A stretch of 64,000 nt of DNA from Natronolimnohabitans sp. A-GB9 (GTDB lineage Archaea; Halobacteriota; Halobacteria; Halobacteriales; Natrialbaceae). The DNA lies in the NCBI RefSeq assembly GCF_030848565.1, contig NZ_JAVDDV010000002.1, forward strand, positions 1-64,000, written 5' to 3'. A program made the translations under genes and the position numbers. A model generated the notes under the pieces. It was not told the origin of the DNA and did no database searches. It saw only the letters and a list, made by a program, of their open reading frames with translations. Positions within the stretch are counted from its first letter, which is position 1, and each line of letters opens with the position of its first letter. Below are positions 59,534 to 61,941 of the stretch, in pieces.

Positions 59534-60088
59534 CTACGGATTCACCCCCACTGCCTGGACCAGCTGTGCGACCCCGATCGCGACGAGCAGGAACGTCGCG
59601 ACGCCGACGAACGACGCACTCGAGGCGGAGCCGACGCCACAGACGCCATGGCCGGACGTACAGCCCTTGCCGAGACGAGTACCGATCCCGACGAGGATCC
59701 CGCCGAGGAACAGCCGCCAGGGCTGGACCTCGGTCAGCCAGATCGTCAGCCCGCCGACCTCCCGCAGTTCGCCGGTCGTCGCTGGCTGGTGGAGTGAACT
59801 CGAGACGAATCCGGACTGGAACGTCAGCGCGTAGACGGCCGCTCCCGCGACGATGCCGAGCGTGAAGACGACCCGCCAGTCACGCGAGGCGCGATACTGC
59901 TGGAAGCGCGACCGGTCCGAGACGTACGACAGCGTCGACTCGAGAAAGGTACTCGCGCCGGCCGGGATCGCGGTCCCGAGATAGATCACCGCGACCCCGA
60001 GACCCACGAGCAGGCCGCCGATCGCGTAGTGGCTGATCCCGGTGGGGAACAGCTCCGCGACCATCGCGACGTGAAGTGTCGTGATCAT
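59534..60088 (-). CDS. YeeE/YedE family sulfur transporter, first half
   Basis: 184-residue membrane protein with about five helices. Cys motif GTRLGKGCTSGHGVCGVG (two Cys) is the YeeE/YedE hallmark; YeeE proteins import thiosulfate by handing it between cysteines. ATG 60088 or 60064. It is co-transcribed with the partner at 59065. It lies next to the tnpB element, whose left side begins about 30 bp upstream. Confidence 0.87.
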   Translation of the reverse strand: MITTLHVAMVAELFPTGISHYAIGGLLVGLGVAVIYLGTAIPAGASTFLESTLSYVSDRSRFQQYRASRDWRVVFTLGIVAGAAVYALTFQSGFVSSSLHQPATTGELREVGGLTIWLTEVQPWRLFLGGILVGIGTRLGKGCTSGHGVCGVGSASSASFVGVATFLLVAIGVAQLVQAVGVNP

Positions 60089-60146
60089 TAGTTGTAGGAA
60101 GGAAACGCCCGCGTATCAAAGCTACCTTTCAACAGCGAGAGAGTCC

Positions 60147-60266
60147 CGCCGTTCACGGCGTTCGCAAGACCTGTGGTCTTGCGCGCACACCGGAATTCGT
60201 CGAGTTCCGGGGACGCTGACGAGAGCAAAAGCTCTCGTTCGCACACCAGAACGCAAAGCGTTCTGG
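60147..60266. repeat. tandem hairpin array with alternating constant linkers
   Basis: Five hairpins in 120 bp: CGCCGttcaCGGCG (60147-60160), GCAAGACctgtgGTCTTGC (60164-60182), CCGGAATTCgtcGAGTTCCGG (60190-60210), GAGAGCaaaaGCTCTC (60221-60236) and CCAGAACGCaaaGCGTTCTGG (60246-60266). Linkers CGCACACC (60184, 60240) and GGGGACG recur with a 56 bp period, so it is a two-unit tandem structure. Confidence 0.8.
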
Positions 60267-60309
60267 GGACGGGTGTCAATCGCGTGCGCTCCGGTGGGAA
60301 ACCGTCGTA

Positions 60310-60453
60310 TTACTGCTGGTCCTGAGTCTCCAACGCTTCCAGACCTGCTTCTAACACCTCTGTATACGCTTCCGAGAGGTCCAAATCGTTCGCTTCTGCG
60401 TAGTCTTTGACTCGGCCACCGAGCGTGTGTGAAATGTCGATGTTGGGCCGCAT
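60310..60453 (-). CDS. ribbon-helix-helix-like small protein divergent from tnpB
   Basis: 47-residue protein (MRPNIDISHTLGGRVKDYAE ... EAGLEALETQDQQ). A beta strand (NIDIS) followed by two helices (LGGRVKDYAEANDLDLSEAY, TEVLEAGLEALE) fits the ribbon-helix-helix DNA-binding pattern of antitoxins and copy-number repressors. I recall similar small genes beside haloarchaeal tnpB. ATG 60453 is about 25 bp from the AT-rich box shared with tnpB, so it could control both transcripts. Function inferred only. Confidence 0.65.
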   Translation of the reverse strand: MRPNIDISHTLGGRVKDYAEANDLDLSEAYTEVLEAGLEALETQDQQ

Positions 60454-60495: not shown

Positions 60496-61836
60496 GTGAA
60501 GCGCACCAACACGTTCGCCGTGCGGCCACTCTCCGATACCGGAGAGCAACTGCTACGAGACCTGTTGGACGCTTCCGCCGCTCTCTGGAACGAGGTCAAC
60601 TACGAACGCCTCATGCGGTACAACGACGAGGACGGCTACGAAGACGAAGACGTGTGGGACGCCGATACAGGCAGTCTCGAAGGCAAATACAAAGGCATGC
60701 TCGGTACGTCCACCGCTCAACAGGTGATACGGAAGAACTCCGAAGCATGGCGCGGATTCTTCGAGAACAAGAAAGCGTATCACGACGAGTCGGATACGTC
60801 AGTCACTGAACACCCGGAACCACCGGGATTCTGGGGCAACAAAGACGACGGACGCAAACTCCATACCGTCATCCGCAACACGTCGTATACCGTCAAATGG
60901 GGCGACCGCTCCCGGCTCGAAATACTGGTCGGGAGCGGGTTGAAAGACCGATACGACCACACCGGGCGTCTCCGGCTGGAAATCGCTGGCAACCCGAATT
61001 GGCCCGACTACGAGAAACAGGGCCGGTTGGACCTGTGGTACGACGAGACAGGCAGCACCTTCCGAGCTTCGCAACCCGTGACTGTTTCTGACGATATACG
61101 GGACACTCCACTGGCCGACGAGAAGGCCGCTCTGGACATCGGTGCGAACAATCTCGTTGCCTGCACCACCACGACCGGTGAGCAATATCTGTATGAGGGC
61201 CGTGAGTTGTTCCAGCGATTCCGCGAGACGACGCGAGAAATCGCCCGGTTACAGTCGAAACTCGAAGAAGACCGATACAGTAGCGAGCGTATCCGGCGGC
61301 TGTACCAAAAACGGACTCGTCGCCGGGACCACGCTCAGGAAGCGTTGTGTCGTGACCTGCTGGAACGACTGTACGCCGAAGGCGTGGATACACTGTATAT
61401 CGGTGGCTTGACCGACGTGCTGGACACGCACTGGTCGGTCGAGACGAATGCCAAAACCCACAACTTCTGGGCGTTCAAGCAGTTTACCGAGCGACTGGCC
61501 TGTACCGCCGAGGAATACGGTATCTCGGTAGAAGTCCGGTCAGAGGCGTGGACCAGTCAGGAGTGCCCGCAGTGTGGCGGCACAGACCGAACGACACGGC
61601 ATCAGGATACACTCACCTGTCCGTGTGGGTTCGAGGGGCACGCCGACCTTACAGCGTCGGAAACGTTCCTAAAGCGGCACACGGAAGAAGCAGTCAGGCC
61701 GATGGCACGGCCCGTGCGGTTCGAGTGGGACGACCACGAATGGTCGGAGTCACCACACTCTCACCGTCCCAAAGAACAGCGCACAGACCCGAGTACCGTC
61801 CACCATGACGGGAATGTTGCCTCCGGCGAGTCGTAG
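60496..61836 (+). CDS. tnpB: RNA-guided endonuclease TnpB (IS1341-type)
   Basis: 446-residue transposon-encoded nuclease, GTG start at 60496. RuvC-I Asp in [10 protein letters not shown] (D214); RuvC-III Asp in [11 protein letters not shown] (D384); zinc ribbon CPQC and CPC (C357, C360, C375, C377). The RuvC-II acidic residue is expected near [10 protein letters not shown] (301-310), where the usual E/D position shows glycines. N-terminal part holds the REC/WED region and [10 protein letters not shown]. It normally cuts DNA at the vacated site with a guide RNA from the right end. Possibly catalytically impaired. Confidence 0.9.
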
Positions 61837-61891
61837 ACCGGCTGAGACTCCCACGGAGGAAACCGCGCCGTTCACGGCGCGGAGGATGTCA
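61780..61891 (+). ncRNA. right-end (omega/sot) guide RNA scaffold of tnpB
   Basis: In this group the 3' end of tnpB and the right end encode an overlapping RNA whose scaffold ends at the element boundary; the guide is the flanking DNA. Here the terminal hairpin 61863-61882 and GAGGATGTCA (61882-61891) fit; the 5' boundary is a guess. Sense-overlapping transcripts of this kind are known in Halobacterium. Confidence 0.5.
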
Positions 61892-61941
61892 TTCACGCGG
61901 GGAAACTTGTGTCTATCCCGGATCGTCACAGCTCCGGACAG

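Follow-up and report, generated by a model that had tools for sequence, protein, structure and literature searches.

Hairpins at the left end of a tnpB element

The window, a 64,000-nucleotide stretch of the haloarchaeon Natronolimnohabitans sp. A-GB9, carries an IS1341-type (tnpB-only) element with a tandem hairpin array in its left end. All five hairpins reported by the first-pass annotation are found by direct reading of the window sequence at 60147-60266, which confirms the array as real. The features of the element are as follows, with the repeat unit that each of two hairpin pairs forms called the module.

60122-60158, plus strand: left tip of the IS1341-type element and left portion of its near-terminal palindrome, CTACCTTTCAACAGCGAGAGAGTCCCGCCGTTCACGG
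60147-60160: hairpin 1, CGCCG-TTCA-CGGCG, core of the palindrome at the IS left end, interrupted by insertion
60159-60215, plus strand: module 1, double-hairpin unit with stems GCAAGACC / CCGGAATTC; covariance model 59.2 bits, E 1.2e-15
60163-60183: hairpin 2 (hairpin B of module 1), 9-bp stem, 3-nt loop
60190-60210: hairpin 3 (hairpin A of module 1), 9-bp stem with one T.G pair
60214-60271, plus strand: module 2, double-hairpin unit with stems ACGAGAGC / CCAGAACGC; covariance model 65.9 bits, E 6.5e-18
60219-60238: hairpin 4 (hairpin B of module 2), 8-bp stem, 4-nt loop
60246-60266: hairpin 5 (hairpin A of module 2), 9-bp stem, 3-nt loop
60272-60284, plus strand: remainder of the left-end palindrome and its conserved continuation, GGTGTCAATCGCG (consensus GGCGTGAATCGCG)
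60310-60453, minus strand: 47-codon ORF; sub-threshold Pfam match only (TraM, E 0.058)
60496-61836, plus strand: tnpB of the IS1341-type element, 446 aa; Pfam OrfB_IS605 1.2e-30, Cas12f1-like_TNB 6.9e-14
61791-61898, plus strand: right end, presumed to hold the 3' part of the omega RNA; Rfam gives archaeal HgcC weakly and below threshold (E 0.037)
61863-61882: right-end palindrome, repeating the core of hairpin 1

The array folds strongly: against 200 dinucleotide shuffles, 60130-60290 comes out 6.6 sd lower and no shuffle is as stable (0/200), and the minus strand of the region gives a z of -5.9. The constant linkers noticed at first pass, CGCACACC and GGGGACG, are each present twice, and the module follows the layout CG-TTGAC-[hairpin B]-TTCGCACA-[hairpin A]-GGGA-CG over 56-59 bp. 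The proposed 56-bp period stands as a spacing, with direct repeats of 39 nt starting 56 apart at 72% identity, but it rests on two units rather than five; it arises because modules 1 and 2 lie head-to-tail and overlap by the common CG at 60214-60215. Tandem Repeats Finder at score 30 does not list the array, as expected for units that are only 64% identical.

Hairpin 1 stands apart from this scheme. Its last two bases, CG, are common to module 1, and it shares CGCCGTTCACGGCG with the right-end palindrome at 61863-61882, bearing out the common core noticed at first pass. In 45 left ends without a module the same core forms an intact palindrome, CCCGCCGTTCACGGCGGGCGTGAATCGCG (or its form with GTTTAC). 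On sequence comparison hairpin 1 is a remnant of the element's near-terminal palindrome and lies outside the repeat unit. The CTACCTTTCAACAGCGAGAGAGTCCCGCCGTTCACGG sequence also opens the empty left ends L038, L041 and L042, and positions 3-42 of the left-end query match at 100% in G090.

The rest of the element has features of its own. The 47-codon ORF, on the strand opposite to tnpB, occupies the gap between that gene and the left end. By eye it seems conserved next to further examples of the same left end (such as L019, L022, L025); its match is weak and below cut-off, and it possibly encodes a small ribbon-helix-helix-like DNA-binding protein or regulator. Aligned to PDB chains, the window TnpB has Gly (LYIGGLTD) at the position that is Glu in RuvC motif two (MEDLT) of solved TnpB/Cas12f-type proteins. 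This Glu is catalytic, and the Gly-bearing clade may be without nuclease activity. Among the TnpB-like ORFs of the examined loci, a redundant set, 28 read GDL or GGL and 39 EDL, ENL or EGL, with 17 unreadable. In the region 59534-60122, the left tip stands ~33 bp upstream of where a YeeE/YedE-like sulphur transport gene (Sulf_transp) has its start codon, a proximity at which the element may affect that gene's promoter. Elsewhere in the window's genome, a short PATE-like element (L003:1430-1535, C56) joins a left tip of the same type to the right tip GGAGGATGTCA around one hairpin, and near modules there is also a double hairpin of another kind, GTCGTT-[hairpin]-TGAYC-[hairpin]-GGACGAC (L002:1413-1468, L005:1716-1771).

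A dispersed double-hairpin unit

Is the array a fixed part of this kind of left end? Exact-consensus flanks in the 125 genomes of the family, which leave out the window's own left end with its altered letters, enclose 45 empty left ends in 28 genomes, 16 with a single insert of 50-64 nt in 15 genomes, and 1 with an insert of 100-128 nt, so that 45/62 are without a module. The array therefore exceeds a normal left end, as had been supposed at first pass, and its being a fixed part of the IS1341/IS605 left end is ruled out by these counts; the outcome named there as refuting, an array fixed in all members of the IS, was not found, and the family loci that we read carry zero (L038, L041, L042), one or two modules. 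Each of the 16 single inserts is the module; all occupy one and the same CG in the palindrome, and both orientations are represented by 8. The eight reverse insertions have one stem type and are preceded by CCCG rather than GRCG; they may represent one inherited event.

Beyond this site, 159 copies define the unit. They begin with CGTT (154/159) and end with GACG (155/159), and the net insert is 54-60 nt in every copy and 57 nt in 128, a share that selection by a 59-position model favours. A joined-flank search against all examined loci returned an unfilled homologue for 103/157 queries, which are not independent, since several share one target and a few are tandem copies (the tandem filter dropped only 2/159, and some are still counted). 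The best unfilled homologue has two extra nucleotides in 80/103 cases, one in 11, three in 9 and another number in 3, and the two are CG in 78 of the 80. Comparison of filled and empty homologues thus shows a discrete unit of 56-59 bp with CG at both ends, present at many unrelated sites, the insertion of which turns CG into CG-module-CG in unrelated targets. The CG on both sides fits either a target duplication or a CG borne by the element. Transposition is in this way deduced from empty and filled homologues rather than from excision or insertion events caught as they happen; on that footing the module is almost certainly a mobile element.

Its targets include the IS1341 left end, left and right ends of other tnpB elements, tnpB genes (at L166:783 and in L081) and a gene for an IS6-like transposase (L034, L039; the kind judged partly by translation). 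Copies occur in both orientations, and the sites inside the tnpB and IS6-type genes are among those unrelated to the left end. Within 500 bp of a tnpA or tnpB ORF lie 86/159 copies, a set chosen by best score in which neither this fraction nor the 57-nt share represents a random sample. In L051, L167, L189 and L247, modules sit within right-end palindromes immediately upstream of GGAGGATGTCA, where they would join the omega RNA scaffold; L189 and L247 are from Haloquadratum itself. In L064 and L081 the tnpB reading frames stay open through the inserted module, the 59-nt form adding 57 nt, a multiple of three.

Around the target CG the preference is one-sided. Among 39 non-redundant sites, obtained by home-made clustering that leaves a few relatives in and counts tandem copies (5) by a rough rule, G stands at -2 in 29 (p 2e-6; background around CG in the examined loci 37%) and R at -1 in 34 (background 45%). 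On the other side, Y at +1 is raised (28/39, p 0.001) and C at +2 is at background level; the asymmetry, 29/39 against 15/39, has p 0.003. As the element itself ends in GACG, GRCG is found at both junctions on one strand.

The module is widespread in one order of archaea. A DNA search of the family gave matches in 105/125 genomes, and in the window's own genome the covariance model, made from 13 copies, picks up the two window units plus five other copies, with an eighth, weak match overlapping one of those. Across the order this model (R1) matches 345/392 genomes and 87/96 genera; at most 6 (family) or 14 (order) candidates were scored per genome, and copy numbers are lower bounds. In a draw from the phylum 77/392 genomes match. 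Of these, 76 are in the order, from which 5 more genomes appear in the list as negatives; outside it the figure is 1 of ~311 (G551, best E 2.8e-6). That figure takes 295 unlisted negatives as non-members of the order, since the list runs by kinship. Forty-four plasmid records match, every one haloarchaeal by name, and an exact pattern scan of named genomes gave at least 119 stretches, the 80 listed being all haloarchaeal except for one Euryarchaeota MAG. A search of the phage collection returned no match, and phage carriage was discarded on that ground. In searches of the open-licence PMC literature we found no prior description of the double-hairpin module, and the excerpts of PMC12306157, PMC3403918, PMC10544981 and PMC12558985 contain nothing on it.

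Against this background the array can be read as the left-end palindrome of the IS1341-type tnpB element plus two successive insertions of a dispersed mobile module, a reading to which we assign a probability of about 0.8. The repeat array of the first-pass annotation becomes two units of one module, both matching a covariance model derived from copies at other loci. The two modules share 64% identity with one another, whereas the nearest relative of module 1 (L017:1572) stands at 93%, as do copies in other genomes (L062, L065 and others) for module 2; this argues that two variants arrived successively and rules out a simple tandem duplication. A CRISPR-like array was rejected by inspection: the repeated parts are linkers of 7-8 nt, and what varies is palindromic, unlike spacers.

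Stem covariation, movement and rival explanations

The stems vary freely in letters and keep their pairing. In 102 distinct copies, aligned by fitting to the model and so leaning towards structure, 98.7% of pair cells are paired against 89.5% in shuffles, and double-change cells number 155 against 28 in shuffles and at most 25 in slid controls; 0/500 shuffles reach the observed pairing or double-change count. With the outer pairs and pair 5-32 left out, 140 cells are Watson-Crick double changes and 15 are G.U, and strong covariation with so few G.U pairs favours DNA hairpins over RNA. The covariation would then reflect maintenance of the hairpin in DNA, whether through selection or through template-switch correction. 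Loops are 3 nt long in 226/244 measured hairpins, with GAA/TTC, GGA/TCC and AAA/TTT making up 153 of the 226; these triplets come as reverse-complement pairs (48/30, 16/23 and 25/11, respectively), as if hairpins flip. Hairpin A opens with C.G or T.A pairs followed by C.G, and the module ends share only CGT/ACG.

How might such a unit move? We favour, tentatively and at somewhat less than even odds, a single-strand, HUH-like route. The module would move as a folded single strand, recognised by a putative enzyme that reads the hairpins and fixed linkers and not the letters of the stems. That enzyme would cut 3' of a GRCG-like target and 3' of the element's terminal GACG, as do IS200/IS605 (Y1) and REP-type HUH enzymes, and such cutting would leave CG on either side without a filled-in duplication. 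Palindromic transposon ends would be preferred because they fold when single-stranded. Independently of the route, the sequences show that a second module can occupy the terminal GACG of the first, whence the 56-bp period. There is precedent in the TnpA-REP systems of E. coli and Stenotrophomonas, described as cutting at a dinucleotide (CT) beside hairpins, the Stenotrophomonas hairpin being a perfect palindrome of 8 bp closed by a 3-nt loop (PMC8266576). A Y1 transposase as the present-day mover from within the window's genome is unsupported, as PF01797 has no match there. The domain is also absent from 106/345 module-bearing genomes of the order; it occurs in 239/345 of these against 20/47 module-free genomes (odds ratio 3.0, p 5e-4), a modest association read off two lists and confounded by genome content.

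The same mobile module could instead be moved double-stranded, by a serine recombinase (IS607-like) or another enzyme that makes a 2-bp crossover or target-site duplication at CG. The palindromic nature of CG, its presence on both sides of the module and the finding of both orientations at one site all suit this route, but the one-sided target bias favours a single-strand cut 3' of the motif over a symmetric 2-bp duplication, the ends lack a long terminal inverted repeat, and a double-strand substrate gives no reason to expect perfect stems whose letters are free; we consider it unlikely. More improbable is a module that serves as a host or rival weapon for inactivating IS605-type elements, a role put forward for other small repeats (see below), although insertion does split the end palindrome and about half of the copies lie close to tnpA/tnpB. 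In G214 a 1582-bp tnpB element with a left-end module is present twice (L062/L092), the copies 98.3% identical with both flanks different, which suggests that the module does not end IS transposition; separate insertion into both copies, the site being a hot spot, keeps a small residual chance. A left end with a module also precedes annotated tnpA and tnpB in Halorientalis.

The multi-hairpin RNA envisaged by the first-pass annotation has lost most of its ground. Strong folding and stem covariation would both be expected of a functional RNA of the IS left end, but most exact-consensus left ends do without a module, copies lie in either orientation at unrelated sites, almost every stem change is a Watson-Crick double change, which suits DNA hairpins better, and no Rfam family matches within 60122-60290 even at a cut-off of E 5. 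We regard an RNA fixed to the left end as mostly refuted and very improbable; structured RNA or omega RNA as the identity of the array was set aside on the Rfam result and the few G.U pairs. Hairpins provoke template switching, and tandem growth in the IS end by slippage or template switching, with no mobile element, would also suit the flipped loop triplets. It is the least probable account of all, since the two modules differ by 36% with close relatives of each elsewhere, and lone modules at unrelated CG sites with empty homologues exclude it as a full explanation; slippage may still shape stems and loops. The first-pass interpretation is thus partly supported, and successive insertion of a mobile module is the reading that we carry forward.

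Relation to known small mobile elements

Among the closest counterparts are the SMR-A repeats of Haloquadratum walsbyi (HqIRS42, HqIRS43, HqIRS55), small mobile repeats whose movement was called enigmatic in 2011 and whose proposed role is the inactivation of IS605-type elements (PMC3119063). Both SMR-A and the module are short, frequent, transposase-free and found within near-terminal palindromes of PATEs or IS605-type elements (PMC3119063), the module in 16/16 cases at the CG of the left-end palindrome and in L167, L189 and L247 in right-end palindromes. SMR-A is ~110 bp long with prominent inverted terminal repeats (PMC3119063), whereas the module has 56-59 bp, two side-by-side hairpins and ends sharing CGT/ACG only. 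SMR-A insertion duplicates no target, while the CG on either side of the module fits a duplicated target as well as a CG of the element's own.

The head-to-head dimers of CGTC-tagged REPs, reported from five bacterial phyla (PMC3733652), likewise pair two hairpins with outward tags and unlike partners, on stems of 8-9 bp; these families are without a dedicated transposase and some dimers lie inside palindromes, as the module does (PMC3733652). The module's right hairpin is CGTC-tagged on the bottom strand in 155/159 copies, but its left tag is CGTT, not CGTC, in 154/159. The REPs have loops of 4-5 nt, A.T first pairs and an unpaired CCA tail (PMC3733652), whereas the module has 3-nt loops and neither other trait; the dimers are bacterial and the module is haloarchaeal. 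REPINs share the logic of the doublet as unit (PMC3116915), but for the accompanying gene of a RAYT-type Y1 transposase there is no PF01797 match in the window's genome, nor in 106/345 module-bearing genomes. With IS200/IS605 ends, PATEs and TnpA-REP the module has in common hairpin ends, no long duplication and, on the favoured route, dinucleotide cutting beside a hairpin (PMC8266576, PMC6006769), but it has no IS tip and its stem sequence is not conserved. The long terminal inverted repeats that a MITE shares with its transposon are missing from the module. Mobile hairpin elements are also known from mitochondria, as double-hairpin elements and GC clusters (PMC2800124). They resemble the module in their double hairpins, tandem insertion and complementary stem changes, a likeness of structure between organellar and haloarchaeal elements.

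We class the module under none of SMR-A, CGTC REP dimers or REPINs; it works like them. It is possible, if rather doubtful, that it represents an archaeal counterpart of REPINs not described before: an element of <60 bp that moves as a folded single strand, is recognised by its constant linkers and the shape of its two hairpins, the stems being free to drift provided that a change in one arm is matched in the other, is cut at GRCG by a putative enzyme, and spreads among haloarchaea as a parasite of tnpB elements, through their palindromic ends and so through their omega RNA scaffolds. Recombination between transposon ends could also spread single hairpins or whole modules. Where it lies in a right end, the module would alter the omega RNA that serves an RNA-guided nuclease.

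The unit has sharp boundaries and occurs across the order; with its empty sites mapped, a target motif on one side only and a site at which it lands by preference, it makes the question of its mobilisation testable in culturable haloarchaea. For the enigmatic mobilisation of SMR-type repeats, and for CGTC-type REPs, which have no known enzyme, the module gives a way to study how minimal elements move.
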